In this document: positions 2,261-12,218 of the stretch, in pieces
Numbering within the stretch: the stretch's first letter is position 1
Layout: each line of letters begins with the position of its first letter
Assembly: GCF_003075095.1 (NCBI RefSeq)
Contig: NZ_QCZF01000004.1
Coordinates: 1-64,000, forward strand
Reading direction: 5' to 3'
From: Blastococcus litoris
GTDB lineage: Bacteria > Actinomycetota > Actinomycetes > Mycobacteriales > Geodermatophilaceae
Length of the DNA: 64,000 bases
Notes under the pieces: generated by a model
Database searches by the model: none
What the model was told of the DNA's origin: nothing
The model's input: the letters and a program-made list of their open reading frames with translations, nothing else
Made by a program: the position numbers and the translations under genes

Positions 2261-3019
2261 GGCTGGGAACGGTAGTCGCGATCTGCCCCCGGTGTCCCTA
2301 GGTGGGCCGCTAAGGGACACGCAGCGCATCCCCGAGCTGCCCCGGCGACTGTTCAGCCGCTGAACAGTCGGTCGGGCCCCGCGGGTCGCTGAGCGGACCC
2401 CGGACCCCACGGCCGCGGCGCCCGGCGGGGTGTCCGTCTCACGCCGGCCACCCGGTAGCGCGGTGGTAGCTGGAGGCAGCGCGGAGGGGCTGAACCGACC
2501 GGGGGAGGGGGTCCCGAGACGTGTTCCCGAGGTGTTCCCCTGCAGGTCAGAGCGTTGGGACCCTCCCCGGAATCCGTGCGGGGGATGGCCCTCCGCTCTC
2601 ACTGCGCGACGCACCCCGCCAAACGGCCCCGGGAGACATGTTCCCGACCCGTTCCCGATGTGCTCCCGGGAACGGGTCGAGTCAGAGATGGAGACGGGGG
2701 TGACGTGTTCCCCACTCACGGACTGGTCCGCGACCCCTGGCCGGCGGATCGTTCCCTCGCCAAGTCGCGGCTGCGCAGGCGTTCCGTTTTCGTCCCTATC
2801 TCCGGGGGAGGACTTGGGTCGTCTCGCTGGTGCGCCTTCGTGCCTTGCTCCCACGGCCAACTGACAGCGGCCAGTCGGGGGCGTGGGGTCAAAAGGTCAG
2901 CGAAGGCAGAGCCTCCGGGCAGTGTCTGCCGGGCGCCGCTCTGCCGATACAGGGTGGTGATGGCCATGTGTCCAGCGGGCCCGGCCTGCGGCTAGTTTGG
3001 TCGTAGGTGTCAGGCATGA
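2261..3019. other. intergenic stretch with repeated TGTTCCC motifs
   Basis: No supported gene. It holds the palindrome at 2293 and, between about 2514 and 2713, several copies of an ACGTGTTCCC/ACATGTTCCC motif (near 2518, 2637 and 2703) with partial copies between them. Open frames exist on both strands but none has a ribosome-binding site or convincing composition. Confidence 0.4.
2293..2319. repeat. TGTCCC palindrome, subtype A, best-conserved copy
   Basis: 27 bp: TGTCCCTAG, core GTGGGCCGC, TAAGGGACA. The arms pair over 8 bp when flanking G/C bases are included (2292-2320). It lies just upstream of the small membrane protein gene. Confidence 0.7.
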
Positions 3020-3035
3020 TCGATCACATGTTCGA
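3020..3035 (+). promoter_or_regulatory. candidate LexA (SOS) box
   Basis: TCGATCACATGTTCGA matches the actinobacterial LexA consensus TCGAAC-N4-GTTCGA at 11 of 12 fixed positions. It ends 16 bases before the preferred GTG start of the dprA-like gene, so a bound repressor would block transcription of the dprA-like/phosphoribosyltransferase pair. Confidence 0.5.
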
Positions 3036-3051
3036 GAGAAGGTGTCGCGGG

Positions 3052-3948
3052 GTGAGTGAGTCAGCTGCACTGGTTGCACTGCTGCAAGCGCGCCCCCAAC
3101 GGCTGACATGGCCGGAGTTGACGGCCAGAGTCGTGGAAGCGGGGTCTGCGTCTGCCGTCTATGACGAGCTGGTGCCCGCTGTCCTCATGCCCGCCCCAGG
3201 GGAGGCCGATCCCCTCGCTGCTGCGGAGGCGCAGGTGCAGGGGTGGGCAGACGAGGGCCTGTCATTCGTGACAGTCCTGGACGATGCCTACCCGGCGAGA
3301 CTCCGGCAGGTGCACCAGGCGCCACCGTTCCTCTTCGCACGCGGTCGCCTGGTGTCCGACGACCCGGCTGTGTCGGTTGTGGGCTCGCGCAAGGCATCCC
3401 CTCAGGGCCTCCACATCGCTGCAGGCGTTGCGACAGCGCTGGCGCAGCGCGGAGTTACCGTGCTGTCCGGGCTGGCGGCTGGAATCGACGCGGCCGCCCA
3501 CCGGGCTGCCTTGGCCGCCGGCGGGCGCACAGTCGCCGTGATCGGCACTGGCATCCGTGGCTACTACCCAGCCGGGAATCGGAATCTTCAGGATCAGATC
3601 GCCCGTGACGGACTAGTGCTGTCGCAGTTCTGGCCAGACGGGCCACCGAGGGCTCAACACTTCCCGATGCGGAACGCCACCATGTCTGGCTACGGCGTGG
3701 CCACCTTGGTCGTGGAGGCAGGGGAGACGAGCGGCGCGCGCATCCAGGCAAGGGTTGCGGTCGAGCACGGACGCCCCGTCATGCTCACTGACCTGGTGGT
3801 GGAGCGAAACCTGTGGGCGCAGGCGCTAGTTGGCCGGCCAGGGGTGCACGTCGTTAAGGGCACGGAGCAGGTGCTGTCCCTTGTGGACGAGTTGCTCGCG
3901 GAGCCGGAGCGTGTGGAGGAGTTTCTGGCCCAGCTGCTGTCAGCGTGA
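3052..3948 (+). CDS. DprA/Smf-like Rossmann protein
   Basis: A 298-residue member of the DprA/Smf (SLOG superfamily) fold. DprA normally binds single-stranded DNA and loads RecA during transformation. Conserved motifs are VGSRKASPQG (about 110), SGLAAGIDAAAH (about 139), GTGIRGYYPAGNR (about 165) and FPMRNATMSG (about 204). No C-terminal winged helix is evident. I prefer the GTG at 3052 because AGAGAAGG lies 9 bases upstream; starts at 3007 or 3028 would overlap the candidate LexA box. Its stop overlaps the next start by four bases, implying coupled expression with a ComF-like phosphoribosyltransferase. The island setting suggests a stress or phage-defence role rather than the housekeeping dprA; that is inference. 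Confidence 0.75.
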   Translation: MSESAALVALLQARPQRLTWPELTARVVEAGSASAVYDELVPAVLMPAPGEADPLAAAEAQVQGWADEGLSFVTVLDDAYPARLRQVHQAPPFLFARGRLVSDDPAVSVVGSRKASPQGLHIAAGVATALAQRGVTVLSGLAAGIDAAAHRAALAAGGRTVAVIGTGIRGYYPAGNRNLQDQIARDGLVLSQFWPDGPPRAQHFPMRNATMSGYGVATLVVEAGETSGARIQARVAVEHGRPVMLTDLVVERNLWAQALVGRPGVHVVKGTEQVLSLVDELLAEPERVEEFLAQLLSA

Positions 3949-4688
3949 CCGGCGCCCAGATTCCCGCTCGGGTCCGGGACATACTCCGGCCGCGGGTGTC
4001 GGGCTACTTCCCGAACATCGTGCATGAGTCCGCGACGTGCCTGACTTGCGCTACGCCGGTCGATGGTTACGCGCGCTGCTACCGCTGCAACTCCGACCGC
4101 GGGCCGCTAACTGCTGACCATGTGGGCTCCTCCGTCTATGCCTGGCCGCGCCACCAGTCGGGTTACGCCATGCATGGCTACAAGGCGCCCCAGCCGCTTG
4201 CCGAGGCTGGCACGGCGGTGTCTCTCCTCCTCGGCGTGGCTTTCGCCTTCCACGCGGACTGTCTGGAGCGCGTGGCAGGACGCTCGGTCGAACAGTGGGC
4301 AACCGTGCCATCGGCCAGCGGCCGCACGGGCGAGCATCCTTTCCACCGCATCGTCGGTCGACTGAAGACAGTGCCCGGGGCAGAGGTGCCAATGCGGTCG
4401 CTCGTTCAGCAGGCGCCGAGGAACGTCGACCCAGCGATTTTCGCCGTTGACGGTGAGGTGCTGGCTGGTGGCCACGTGCTCCTGCTCGACGACACGTGGA
4501 CGACGGGCAGTCGCGCGCAGTCTGCTGCCGGAGCGCTGAAGCTTGCCGGTGCTGGGACTATCTCCGTCTACACCGTGGCGCGATGGTTGGACCCCGCCTA
4601 CAGCACCACGAAGGCCTTCATGCCTCGCCTTGCGCATCCAGACTTCGACCCCAGCCTGTGCCCCTGGACCGGCGGAGCCTGTCCGTAG
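3945..4688 (+). CDS. ComF-like phosphoribosyltransferase with zinc ribbon
   Basis: A 247-residue protein with an N-terminal zinc ribbon (CLTC at 32 and CYRC at 45) and a type I phosphoribosyltransferase core whose PRPP loop is VLLLDDTWTTGSRAQSAA (about 178-195). This is the layout of ComF, the competence protein that acts with DNA-uptake machinery. VPSASGRTGEHPF (about 121-133) is probably part of the active-site pocket. The GTG start overlaps the stop of the dprA-like gene (GTGA). The substrate is unknown. It could make or remove a nucleotide signal bound by the SLOG-fold partner, but nothing in the sequence proves this. Confidence 0.7.
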   Translation: MTGAQIPARVRDILRPRVSGYFPNIVHESATCLTCATPVDGYARCYRCNSDRGPLTADHVGSSVYAWPRHQSGYAMHGYKAPQPLAEAGTAVSLLLGVAFAFHADCLERVAGRSVEQWATVPSASGRTGEHPFHRIVGRLKTVPGAEVPMRSLVQQAPRNVDPAIFAVDGEVLAGGHVLLLDDTWTTGSRAQSAAGALKLAGAGTISVYTVARWLDPAYSTTKAFMPRLAHPDFDPSLCPWTGGACP

Positions 4689-4726
4689 CTTCGTTCGTAG
4701 GTCACCTGTGCGCTAGACCTATCTTT

Positions 4727-4906
4727 CGCCTGCGGGCGCCACTGCCCGACGTCGTCGCGATGCAGACCCGCCAGCCGAACCTGGAGGGCGCCGGGGAGAT
4801 CCCGCTGCGCCGGCTGGTGAAGGAGGCGCTGCGCATGCGGCCCTCGCGGATCGTCGTCGGCGAGGTCCGCCAGCAGGAGTGCCTGGATCTGACGCAGTCG
4901 GCCTGA
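4727..4906 (+). pseudogene. truncated cpaF/tadA pilus ATPase fragment, copy 1
   Basis: About 60 codons matching the middle of a CpaF/TadA-type secretion ATPase: LPDVVAMQTRQPNLEG, then GEIPLRRLVKEALRMRPS and IVVGEVRQQECLDL. The match breaks off before the rest of the ATPase and runs into a stop at 4904. No start or upstream ATPase sequence is present, so it is a non-functional fragment. A second, frameshifted copy with the same left boundary (TTCGCCT) lies at 9752. The repeated fragment is probably a trace of recombination or of a mobile unit. Confidence 0.65.
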
Positions 4907-6638: not shown

Positions 6639-6824
6639 TTGATGTCAATGCTGGTCGCCGGCTGTCGTGCCCGTGGCGCCCATGGTTAGGGATTGGGCTC
6701 GCTGAGCCACGGGGTCGAGCGGCCCTTAGCGTCGTACTCGCTGGGTAGCGTTCGGCACAAAGTCGCAGCTACCGGAGGCTGCGAGGATCGGGGGGGACAC
6801 TTCTTGCCGCTCAACTGGCCTCAG

Positions 6825-7721
6825 ATGCAGTCAATCGGGGGCAACATGCCCGACGGTGACCGGCAGGCTGTGCACAAGCAGCTGAACCAGTTCGCCGATT
6901 TCGTTGTCGCAGGCTTGGCGAAGCATGGCTTGCCTCAGCACGCGTCACCCCTCTGGCGGCCTTGGAGCGTGCTCGTTGTCAGGGACAGGGAGAAGGTCCT
7001 CTGTGCCTTCAGCCCACTCACCGGTGGCATCGCCAACGTGAACTGGCTCGACAAGCCAGGTGAGATGTGGAGCCCCGACGGGATGGCGCAGGCGGTCAGG
7101 AGCGAGCTCGGCCGTGAGGTCAGCACGGTCGTCGTGCTACCGCCCTCGGGCATTAGTGGAGAGGCAAGCTTCTTGGAGGCGGTTGCCGGGCAGCATGTCG
7201 ATGATGTTGAGAGAGCGAACCGGCTCGGACGCTTGGGCGACTTGAGCGGCGTCCGGCATCTTGAGCCGCAGTTGCGCCAGTTCTTGGAGGACCACCCAGA
7301 CCCGGAGCGCAACGTCTTCGTGATGATGCGCTTTCTGCAGTCCGCGCAGCTCGATGAGGCGCATACGGCGGTGAAGGAGACACTGGCGGCTCGCGGCTTC
7401 CACGCAGTGCGGGCAGACGACCGCGACTACACCGGCGAACTGTGGTCCAATATTGAGGTCTACCTCACTGGCTGCAAGTACGGCGTAGCGATCTTCGAGG
7501 ACATTGAGCAGCGTGAGCACAACCCCAATGTCGCTTTGGAGCTTGGTTACATGCTGGGACGGCGTAAGCGCTGCCTCATCCTCAAGGAGAAGCGACTGCC
7601 CACCTTGCCGTCAGACGTCATGCACCGTCTCTACAAGCCCTTCGACATGTTCGATGTCAAGGCGTCGGTGACTCGTGAAGTTGGCCGCTGGATTGACGTT
7701 GACCTCGGATTAGGGGCTTGA
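6825..7721 (+). CDS. TIR-like domain protein, putative NAD-targeting effector
   Basis: About 298 residues. The N-terminal 150 residues form an unrecognised alpha/beta domain. The C-terminal 130 residues have the TIR or nucleoside-deoxyribosyltransferase-like fold: strand NVFVMMRF (about 163), AARGFHAVRADD, YGVAIFED (about 219) and NPNVALELGYMLG (about 233), where the Glu (about 239) sits where TIR NADases keep their catalytic acid. LPSDVMHRLYKPFDMF follows, as in TIR-like effectors of bacterial defence systems. The start is uncertain: a TTG at 6804 has the best ribosome site (GGGGGGGA), and ATGs at 6825 and 6846 are alternatives. It stops 10 bases from a convergent lipoprotein gene. Confidence 0.6.
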   Translation: MQSIGGNMPDGDRQAVHKQLNQFADFVVAGLAKHGLPQHASPLWRPWSVLVVRDREKVLCAFSPLTGGIANVNWLDKPGEMWSPDGMAQAVRSELGREVSTVVVLPPSGISGEASFLEAVAGQHVDDVERANRLGRLGDLSGVRHLEPQLRQFLEDHPDPERNVFVMMRFLQSAQLDEAHTAVKETLAARGFHAVRADDRDYTGELWSNIEVYLTGCKYGVAIFEDIEQREHNPNVALELGYMLGRRKRCLILKEKRLPTLPSDVMHRLYKPFDMFDVKASVTREVGRWIDVDLGLGA

Positions 7722-9740: not shown

Positions 9741-9751
9741 TCGATACGGAT

Positions 9752-9895
9752 TCGCCTCTGGGTGCCGCTGCCCGACGTCGTGGCAATGCAGACCCGCCAG
9801 CTTCAACCTCGAGGGCGCGGGTGAGATCCCGCTGCACCGGCTGGTCAAGGAGGCGCTGTGGATACGGCCCTCGCGGGTCGTCGTCGGCGAGGCGC
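9752..9895 (+). pseudogene. truncated, frameshifted cpaF/tadA fragment, copy 2
   Basis: The same internal piece of a CpaF/TadA ATPase as at 4727: LPDVVAMQTRQ, then after a +1 shift NLEGAGEIPLHRLVKEAL and RPSRVVVGEA. Homology starts at the same TTCGCCT boundary as copy 1 and ends near the GGCGAG of the VGE codons. One extra base after the QTRQ codons breaks the frame, so it cannot encode protein. Confidence 0.6.
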
Positions 9896-10176: not shown

Positions 10177-11115
10177 TCAGACGAGCTTGGCGGCCTTCGA
10201 CCGATTGCAGCGCCAGCACAACGTCTGGAGGTTCTCCGGCGTGGACAGGCCACCCTTCGACACCGGGATCATGTGGTCCACTTCCAGCAGCAGGTGGGGC
10301 TCGTCTGTCAGGGACACGGCGCAGCGCTGGCAGGTGTAGTTGTCGCGCGCCTTGATGTCATTGCGCAGCCTGGTCGTCATCAGGGCGCGCTGGCCGGCTG
10401 CGCTCCTCCTCCAGCGGATCTTCTGCCCGAGCGTCTCGACAAGTGCGTCGATAACCGGAGCGTTGAACGTGACGGTCGCCCTCTGCGAGCTGTTGCCACC
10501 GGCGCTGACGTACTCGAACACGTAGACGGGGTAGGGCACGGAGATCGGCGCGAGGTGCGCGCCGACCTGCGCCATCAACTCCCGCCAGTAGTGCTTACGG
10601 ATGAAGCTGGGCGGGTCGATCGACGCGGCGATGGCGGCCTCGCGCTCGTGGAGGTTGCCGACGGCTGCCTCGAGGCGGGAGATGCTCTCGCCGAGGCGCT
10701 CGACCTCCTCAAGGCTGGGCTCGTCGGCCCGGATGCCGAAGTACTTCATCACGTACTTCAGCGGGTCCGCGCTGGCGTTTCGGACGACCTGCAGGGAGCA
10801 GTTGTGCACATTCCGGGCCTGGTAGCTGGCCAGGTTCCGGTCGCGTCGGTAGTTCCACTGGCTGGTGTTCTGAAAGGACGCCAGGTGCGCCTGGGTCCCA
10901 GTGGTCGACGCACCGATTTGGAACGTGCCGCCGGACCGGATGTCGGCGGTGTACGCGCTGACTTCGTTGTGCTCGGCGACCACCGCGGCGACATCGGCCT
11001 TGTGGGCCCCGAACTCCTCGCTGGCGAAGTAGCGCTCCTTGCGGATGTAGCGGATGACGCGGATCAGCGCCCACGCGGCGAGGACCACAGCGACGAGCGT
11101 CAAGAAGTCGTTCAC
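10177..11115 (-). CDS. membrane-anchored HNH endonuclease
   Basis: About 312 residues. An N-terminal transmembrane helix (FLTLVAVVLAAWALIRVI) is followed by a basic stop-transfer RYIRKERYF, an unknown middle region, a helical/coiled segment (LEEVERLGESISRLEAAVG) and a C-terminal HNH nuclease: CQRC, LEVDHMIPVSKGG, NLQTLCWRCNRSK, with the catalytic His in DHMIP and a four-cysteine zinc site. I chose the GTG at 11,115, with GGAG 11 bases upstream. Tethering an HNH nuclease to the inner membrane would suit cleavage of incoming DNA, but this is inference. It stands alone, divergent from an EcsC gene. Confidence 0.65.
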   Translation of the reverse strand: MNDFLTLVAVVLAAWALIRVIRYIRKERYFASEEFGAHKADVAAVVAEHNEVSAYTADIRSGGTFQIGASTTGTQAHLASFQNTSQWNYRRDRNLASYQARNVHNCSLQVVRNASADPLKYVMKYFGIRADEPSLEEVERLGESISRLEAAVGNLHEREAAIAASIDPPSFIRKHYWRELMAQVGAHLAPISVPYPVYVFEYVSAGGNSSQRATVTFNAPVIDALVETLGQKIRWRRSAAGQRALMTTRLRNDIKARDNYTCQRCAVSLTDEPHLLLEVDHMIPVSKGGLSTPENLQTLCWRCNRSKAAKLV

Positions 11116-11516
11116 GGCTCGGCACACTCCGTGATCGGCCAGCGAAATGCCACCGACCGCGCCGCGCATGCGTCGCGTGAGGCCCGTGGGGTGCGGATGG
11201 CCGGGGGATGCGCCCCGCAGGTCGGGTCCGGCCCCGCGGCTGCGCTGCCGCCGGGGATGCACCGCAATCTCGCGCTTGGACGCCTCCGCGGTCTCGCCTC
11301 CTCACGCGGCAAGGGGACGCTCGCCGCCGTCGAACCACGCTTCCCGCTAGCCAACGTGCCGTGCACCAGCTGCGCCGGACATGCGCCGCGGCTGCTGGCG
11401 GGGCGTCTGTGACGGCAGTGAGAAGGGCCGCTTCCTGCGGCGGTGTCGGCGGCACGGTCCCGGTTCTCTCGTCGTCGATGACGAAGAGTGGAGGGACCGA
11501 ACGGGGAGGAAGACCG
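11116..11516. other. divergent intergenic region, no gene seen
   Basis: A 400-base gap between the divergent HNH and EcsC genes. It is very GC-rich; open frames run on both strands but lack start signals. It must hold both promoters; no convincing -35/-10 pair or dyad stands out. Confidence 0.3.
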
Positions 11517-12218
11517 ATGCAGCTGATCCGCAAGACCGAGGTGGTCGAGGACTACGACACCGATGAGCTGGTAGGCGAGGTGATGCCTACCCAGACGAGT
11601 CGGAAGGGCGCCGAGCTCGCCGAGAAGCTGGTCTCGAACATCCTCTCCGTCGGCGTGGACGGCGCCGGTCGGTTCAAGGGCGCCCGCGAGATCGCCGAGG
11701 AGCACCGGGCTCACCACGTCGACGTCGAGGTGGCCATCGCGAAGGTCATCGCCACGCATGCGCGCGTAGTCACGGCGACGGGATTCGCCACCGGGCTCGG
11801 CGGGATCGCCACGCTGCCGGTCGCGATCCCGACCGACATCGCGATGTTCTACGCCTACGCCGGCCGCTGCGCCGCCGCCGTCGCGTATCTCCGCGGGTAC
11901 GACATCGAGTCCGACGAGGTCCGGAGCGTCGTACTGCTGTCACTTCTGGGCGCAGGCGGTGTCGCGGCCGCGTCGAAGGTCGGCGTCGAGCTCGGCACCA
12001 AGACCGCGATGGCTGCACTCAAGAAGCTGCCCGGCAAGGTGCTCATCGAGATCAACAAGAAAGTCGGCTTCCGGCTCGTCACCAAGGCCGGCACCAAGGG
12101 AGTCGTCAACCTCGGCAAGCTCGTGCCGTTCGTGGGTGGGGGCGTCGGCGCCACGGTCAACGCGGTGGGGATGCGCACCGTGGCGACCTACGCGAAGAGC
12201 AACTTTCCGACTATCTGA
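11517..12218 (+). CDS. EcsC family protein
   Basis: A 233-residue protein of the EcsC type: polar N-terminus, EIAEEHRAHHVDVEVAIAKV, then Ala/Gly-rich amphipathic segments (ATGFATGLGGIATLPVAIPTDI; FYAYAGRCAAAVAYLRGYDI) and a basic C-terminal half with repeated GTK motifs. EcsC proteins are membrane-associated and of unclear biochemistry; they occur beside ABC transporters and in accessory loci. GGGGAGGA lies 7 bases before the ATG. A 66-codon frame follows 14 bases after the stop and may be co-transcribed. Confidence 0.7.
   Translation: MQLIRKTEVVEDYDTDELVGEVMPTQTSRKGAELAEKLVSNILSVGVDGAGRFKGAREIAEEHRAHHVDVEVAIAKVIATHARVVTATGFATGLGGIATLPVAIPTDIAMFYAYAGRCAAAVAYLRGYDIESDEVRSVVLLSLLGAGGVAAASKVGVELGTKTAMAALKKLPGKVLIEINKKVGFRLVTKAGTKGVVNLGKLVPFVGGGVGATVNAVGMRTVATYAKSNFPTI

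Follow-up and report, generated by a model that had tools for sequence, protein, structure and literature searches.

Several toxin-antitoxin systems use a DprA homologue as the antitoxin, as described for shosTA, syrTA and rqlHI, and a pair of DprA and phosphoribosyltransferase (PRTase) genes from an E. coli P2 phage protects against T7 and lambda (PMC9122126). According to a review (PMC12593503, citing Pu et al. 2025), ShosT disturbs purine metabolism and leads to DNA duplications and cell death, and ShosA is a DNA-binding protein that likely favours recombination. Here, these systems are compared with a gene pair of Blastococcus litoris, which lies near the start of a stretch of 64,000 nucleotides (the window) and encodes a DprA-like protein and a PRTase behind a LexA (SOS) box. 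The pair is of the DprA/PRTase (ShosTA-like) kind with a variant effector. By analogy, it is probably a toxin-antitoxin or defence operon with a compact, ComF-like zinc-ribbon toxin under the control of LexA, in which LexA would bind the box, the DprA-like protein would restrain and release the toxin, and the toxin would deplete phosphoribosyl pyrophosphate (PRPP) or purines. A preliminary description of the pair had mentioned couplings of this type as proposed conflict systems; ShosTA and the defence provided by the P2-phage pair confirm that such systems exist (PMC9122126).

The gene pair and the described systems

Both genes start with GTG, and the overlap of their ends (GTGA) reported in the preliminary description is found in the reading frames; among 70 relatives, 32 allow the same reading with a script that favoured the PRTase start at the 4-bp overlap where present. 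The product of the first gene matches Pfam DNA_processg_A at E 2.2e-59 and apparently consists of a SAM-like and a Rossmann/SLOG domain with no C-terminal winged helix, as judged from a structural model and the length of the protein. Pfam Pribosyltran matches the second product at E 0.07 only, which is under the family cut-off. It is identified as a PRTase by the intact PRPP loop HVLLLDDTWTTGS, the conservation of this loop in 52 aligned relatives and the predicted structure, for which ComF is the best fold match. Further invariant residues are H103, C106 and C239, with C246 nearly invariant in a smaller set. A separate housekeeping dprA is present in the same genome (contig C11).

The PADLOC profile for ShosA (PDLC03961) matches the DprA-like protein at E 5.2e-59 and also the housekeeping DprA of the host at E 3.4e-48. 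As this model cannot separate the two, the ShosA label alone is little proof, and naming the pair by PADLOC alone was rejected. The ShosT profile (PDLC03962) gives E 0.0083 for the PRTase of the window and 3.2e-6, 1.6e-5 and 0.0052 for three relatives, while true short ShosT proteins reach about 1e-41 and 1e-44; the pair is therefore not filed as a strict ShosTA system. It does share with ShosTA the PRTase fold with a PRPP loop and the adjacent genes with the antitoxin first, as in E. coli. Judging from the profile scores, defence-gene models based on the current ShosT profiles likely miss this branch of PRTases.

In long ShosTA systems of E. coli P2-like phages (PDB 8zva, 8zvb-d), ShosT has 424 aa and a HAD-like N-terminal stretch (weak Pfam matches), whereas the PRTase of the window is shorter (247 aa), carries a zinc ribbon and does not match HAD; a LexA box, as found before the pair in the window, is absent from the E. 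coli loci tested. The short ShosTA systems (PDLC03961/PDLC03962) of Burkholderia phage Mana, Pseudomonas phage Riah and alphaproteobacterial plasmids share the compact PRTase (225 aa for the short ShosT of Mana), the gene order and, in Mana and five of six alphaproteobacterial loci, a perfect LexA operator of the respective group. In contrast to the window protein with its E of 0.0083, the PRTases of Mana and Riah match PDLC03962 at 141-151 bits, and they have no CxxC...CxxC zinc ribbon. In PsyrTA/RqlHI, the antitoxin is likewise a DprA homologue (PMC9122126, there syrTA and rqlHI), and the PsyrA profile matches the DprA-like protein at E 1.1e-28. The PsyrT profile (689 positions) matches the PRTase at E 0.0052 over positions 629-683 only; unlike PsyrT, the toxin candidate of the window consists of a PRTase and a zinc ribbon alone.

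ComFC proteins have the same combination of CxxC...CxxC zinc ribbon and PRTase domain. The PRTase type of the window differs from them by its DprA-like partner gene, by a location that is often downstream of a damage-type operator and on mobile DNA, and by the additional conserved residues H103, C106, C239 and C246; a ComF-like effector may also offer a handle on the function of ComFC proteins. The proteins of Caulobacter HigAB and E. coli yafN-yafO are unrelated to the DprA/PRTase pair. Their likeness to it lies in the SOS control of a toxin-antitoxin system (PMC9578287).

Damage-type operators in front of DprA/PRTase pairs

In the preliminary description, an SOS box matching 11 of 12 fixed positions ends 16 bp ahead of the first gene's start codon, and the bases bear this out: TCGATCACATGTTCGA differs at one position from TCGAAC-N4-GTTCGA, which we take to be the LexA consensus, so that an operator fitting this consensus stands near the start as in members of the LexA regulon. 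The consensus is supported in the host genome (4.63 Mb) by 30 sites with at most one mismatch against 6 for the reversed pattern (about 0.13% per 200 bp), and by two perfect sites and one with a single mismatch about 180-275 bp before the lexA match of the host (C10:116061).

For the preliminary description to stand, the two genes would also have to occur together elsewhere and the box would have to be conserved; it stood up to both checks. A scan of 84,980 species, each represented by a single genome, gave 93 relatives of the PRTase; the best 80 were analysed, and all of these bear actinobacterial names. A DprA-like open reading frame (ORF) lies upstream on the same strand in 70 of the 80, at most about 0.54 kb from the chosen PRTase start. 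Ten have no such partner, and none of the ORFs around the three inspected (L066, L083, L114) is DprA-like. Within the order of the host, relatives of the PRTase (E <= 1e-3) occur in 28 of 298 genomes, including Blastococcus litoris; 23 of these genomes have a DprA-like gene of the same family beside the PRTase gene. Eight relatives were found among 72,556 plasmid records and four among 50,697 phage records, the latter representing two distinct Gordonia phages; in all eight records retrieved (two of the four phage and six of the eight plasmid records) a DprA-like gene is annotated beside the PRTase. One viral scan with a Sinorhizobium PRTase as the query gave no match. For the phylum as a whole, profile A3 matched 358 of 396 genomes; as these matches are presumably mostly housekeeping ComF, the count was dropped as a measure of prevalence.

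LexA sites were counted in 66 of the 70 pairs, four with less than 260 bp of upstream sequence being excluded. A site with at most one mismatch lies within 200 bp of dprA in 29 of these 66 divergent relatives, far above the controls: six other palindromes gave 0-1 of 66, and the site is present in 0.5% of the 1,245 other windows scored and at 1 of the 307 coding-like ORFs that flank the loci. The boxes in relatives had been noticed before this set of genome contigs was counted. A further set was drawn from 54 loci of other searches, of which 12 had no pair and 19 were duplicates (DprA at least 90% identical); the 23 pairs used include 7 with a LexA box, 6 with the PafBC promoter core described below and none with both. 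In a DprA tree of 77 rows (two of the 70 pairs with truncated DprA, L096 and L123, excluded and nine loci added), the LexA label requires 15 changes as against 25 when shuffled. It is therefore clustered in groups, yet spread over distant ones. In the Micromonosporaceae loci L081, L088 and L115, the palindrome TCGTAC-N4-GTACGA is found 76-89 bp before dprA, perfect in L088 and altered in the other two; its sequence is possibly a family-specific form of the LexA box.

A second type of damage control is known from the RecA-NDp promoter, with the consensus tTGTCRgtg-8 nt-TannnT (PMC5656591), which has been tied to PafBC (PMC8223512, PMC6789036). It was counted in 76 upstream regions, from 68 of the 70 pairs and eight plasmid or phage loci. 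The exact core TGTCR-N11-TANNNT is present in 10 of them (by name, six Mycobacteriaceae and one Nocardiaceae), with 0-2 at other spacings, 6 matches in the remaining 620 kb of locus DNA and 3 in 307 flanking ORFs; no region has both the exact core and a LexA box. With one mismatch allowed, spacing 11 gives 32 of the 76, ten other spacings give 3-18 and five anagrams 2-6. As the motif had first been spotted by eye in these upstream sequences and was then counted on the same loci, it was tested separately on the loci from other searches, where the exact core is found in 6 of the 23 further pairs. The PafBC-like site of the window has one mismatch, a level also reached by 18 of 307 flanking ORFs, and by itself is weak evidence. 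In L077, L079 and L069, such a one-mismatch site abuts the LexA box, an arrangement which, from the sequences, could mean dual control.

The PafBC sites and the extension to Proteobacteria go beyond what the preliminary description had expected. The SOS box of Caulobacter is GTTCN7GTTC (PMC9578287, Table 1), and perfect copies of it lie 92-95 bp before dprA in five of six short ShosTA-type loci on alphaproteobacterial plasmids. TACTG-N10-CAGTA, the ends of the E. coli SOS box (PMC9578287, Table 1), is present before the pairs of Burkholderia phage Mana, where the box is perfect, and of the related viral contig L208. Three loci in which DprA was not found (L220) or not annotated (L228, L231) are outside the box counts. 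Three of the alphaproteobacterial plasmids (L229, L232, L234) carry two convergent DprA/PRTase pairs side by side, with GTTCN7GTTC before the first pair (short PRTase) only and none in about 200 bp before the second (414-aa PRTase).

Several results weigh against a general role of damage control. Neither a LexA box nor the exact PafBC core is present in 34 of the 76 regions, and in the group with LexA boxes the one-mismatch PafBC motif does not stand out clearly from other spacings (9 of 32 against 0-8 of 32). Ten of the 23 further loci had been inspected earlier for LexA, and the 13 new ones include 2 with LexA and 5 with PafBC; two of the 23 (L017 with LexA, L026 with PafBC) are 87-88% identical in DprA to earlier loci, and 6 LexA and 5 PafBC of 21 are left without them. 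The sixth alphaproteobacterial locus (Agrobacterium L235, with a broken PRTase frame) has no box. Four of the five positive ones are Rhizobiaceae with DprA proteins 88-94% identical, so that the five represent about two lineages, and the anagram control CTTG-N7-CTTG matched three of the five. Enterobacter L227 has GTTCN7GTTC at -12, which is not the operator expected for its group; matches to GTTCN7GTTC can therefore be due to chance. No operator was found in the long ShosTA loci of E. coli (L200, L216-L219, L221-L224), in the Pseudomonas loci L202, L206 and L209-L213, or in L225, L214, L215 and the E. coli plasmid L226, the P. aeruginosa pattern having been tried as well. With no operator at the loci tested from Pseudomonas and E. 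coli, control by DNA damage through different regulators appears, as far as the sequences go, to be a trait that recurs among these modules without being universal.

Proposed mechanism and competing explanations

In the proposed mechanism, LexA bound to the box would hold the expression of the operon low, and the DprA-like protein would restrain the PRTase in the normal state. DNA damage, be it from phage attack, prophage induction or another cause, would act through RecA to free the operon from LexA, and single-stranded DNA or recombination intermediates may draw the DprA-like protein off, so that the PRTase would be both derepressed and released. The free enzyme would spend PRPP or purine nucleotides and stop growth, and the damage it causes would in turn sustain the SOS response. 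Under LexA or PafBC alike, the pair would be supplied upon DNA damage and released by the ensuing DNA structures. The sequence of steps, the reaction of the ComF-like enzyme and a protection from phages are here inferred. The preliminary description had suggested nucleotide signalling, for which nothing was found; the known analogue is described as acting as a toxin on purine metabolism (PMC12593503).

A wider proposal, which we hold as a serious though tentative one with slightly less than even chances, is that damage control is selected and has been repeatedly re-invented in DprA/PRTase modules: by LexA, or PafBC where the box is absent, in Actinobacteria, by GTTCN7GTTC in Alphaproteobacteria and by TACTG-N10-CAGTA in Mana and the related viral contig. 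The modules would then be suicide switches amplified by damage, with SOS supplying the toxin and recombination intermediates releasing it, and with a ComF fold turned effector in Actinobacteria. The literature searched, mostly open-access, contains no statement of recurrent damage control of DprA/PRTase modules (absence from print is unproven), and the accessible parts of a paper on AbpAB draw no link between LexA and ShosTA. If unrelated damage regulators do recur at these modules, the question of the trigger becomes directly testable with mitomycin, reporters and box mutants.

The same upstream sites would suit an SOS-regulated repair pair, an accessory repair or recombination module of mobile elements in which the DprA-like protein loads RecA or protects single-stranded DNA and the PRTase would assist it instead of being a toxin. 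The control does resemble that of repair genes, the DprA-like family is by sequence nearer to a DprA of solved structure (S. pneumoniae 3uqz, E 6.9e-53) than to ShosA (1.6e-35), and ComF is the best fold match of the PRTase. We nevertheless consider this unlikely in view of the copies on phages and plasmids, the lack of a copy among the matches listed in 15 same-genus genomes and the association with a PRTase, which is also seen in characterised toxin-antitoxin systems (PMC9122126). Somewhat less probable still is a module of prophages or other mobile elements whose box serves the element, by timing it with SOS-driven prophage induction or transfer, and not the defence of the host. Gordonia phages Bosnia and Vasanti (the latter with a LexA box), Burkholderia phage Mana with its perfect box and plasmids carry the pair, but most actinobacterial boxes sit on contigs with no phage or plasmid label (draft contigs, some of which may not be chromosomal), and two of the first eight plasmid or phage loci have a LexA box and two a PafBC core. 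That the box of the window is a chance or inherited sequence with no function here is very improbable: although it deviates at one position and both types of site are missing in 34 of 76 relatives, about 0.5% is expected and 44% is seen, the further set has 7 of 23, the boxes are spread across divergent parts of the DprA tree, and another damage promoter is enriched where the LexA box is absent. The toxin-antitoxin or defence operon under LexA is the explanation we prefer.

Feature coordinates and neighbouring genes

Table 1. Features of the gene pair and its upstream region (positions in the window)
Feature	Position	Strand	Basis
PafBC (RecA-NDp)-like motif, one mismatch (TGTCA-N11-TCACAT), overlaps the LexA box; tentative	3008..3029	+	motif scan
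LexA/SOS box	3020..3035	.	consensus match; host lexA sites; relatives
DprA-like (ShosA-like) protein, 298 aa, proposed DNA-binding antitoxin/sensor	3052..3948	+	Pfam/PADLOC profiles, model
Stop/start overlap GTGA, 4 bp, possible translational coupling	3945..3948	+	ORF reading
ComF-like zinc-ribbon PRTase, 247 aa, proposed toxin/effector	3945..4688	+	motifs, predicted fold
Zinc ribbon C32xxC35...C45xxC48, invariant across 52 sequences	4038..4088	+	alignment
PRPP-binding loop VLLLDDTWTTGS, D183/W185/G188 invariant	4476..4511	+	alignment of 52 relatives

The preliminary description had placed the pair in an integrated island with no other competence gene. Pfam recognised no competence gene among the 10 neighbouring ORFs, which bears out the latter part and speaks against a competence locus. 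For the island, a shift in composition and a patchy presence were found: third-position GC content is 0.69-0.83 for the ORFs at about 0.3-13.5 kb (one HNH gene 0.90) and mostly at least 0.9 beyond 14 kb (range 0.73-0.99), both from a crude gene finder, and among the matches listed in a DNA search of 15 other genomes of the genus, only two short stretches fall within the pair (3438-3539), presumably owing to housekeeping dprA. Integration is inferred from these two features; the Pfam scan of the same 10 ORFs recognised no integrase.

A fragment at 4725-4865 has a second copy at 9751-9892, 5.03 kb away and 88-90% identical. Relatives of it are found at C1:807097 and in most genomes of the genus; we take it to resemble a TadA/CpaF ATPase gene. 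The two copies are perhaps remnants of the insertion or recombination of a module. An integration flanked by repeats was rejected, as the copies recur in the genus and could not be shown to bound the island. At 6693-7721, a TIR-domain protein similar to the CAP12/Pycsar effector (E 2.7e-5, just under the Pfam cut-off) is encoded, by its sequence possibly another defence gene near the pair. At 10177-12218, an HNH endonuclease gene stands beside an EcsC-family gene matching the PADLOC candidate PDC-S29 (E 1.7e-71).
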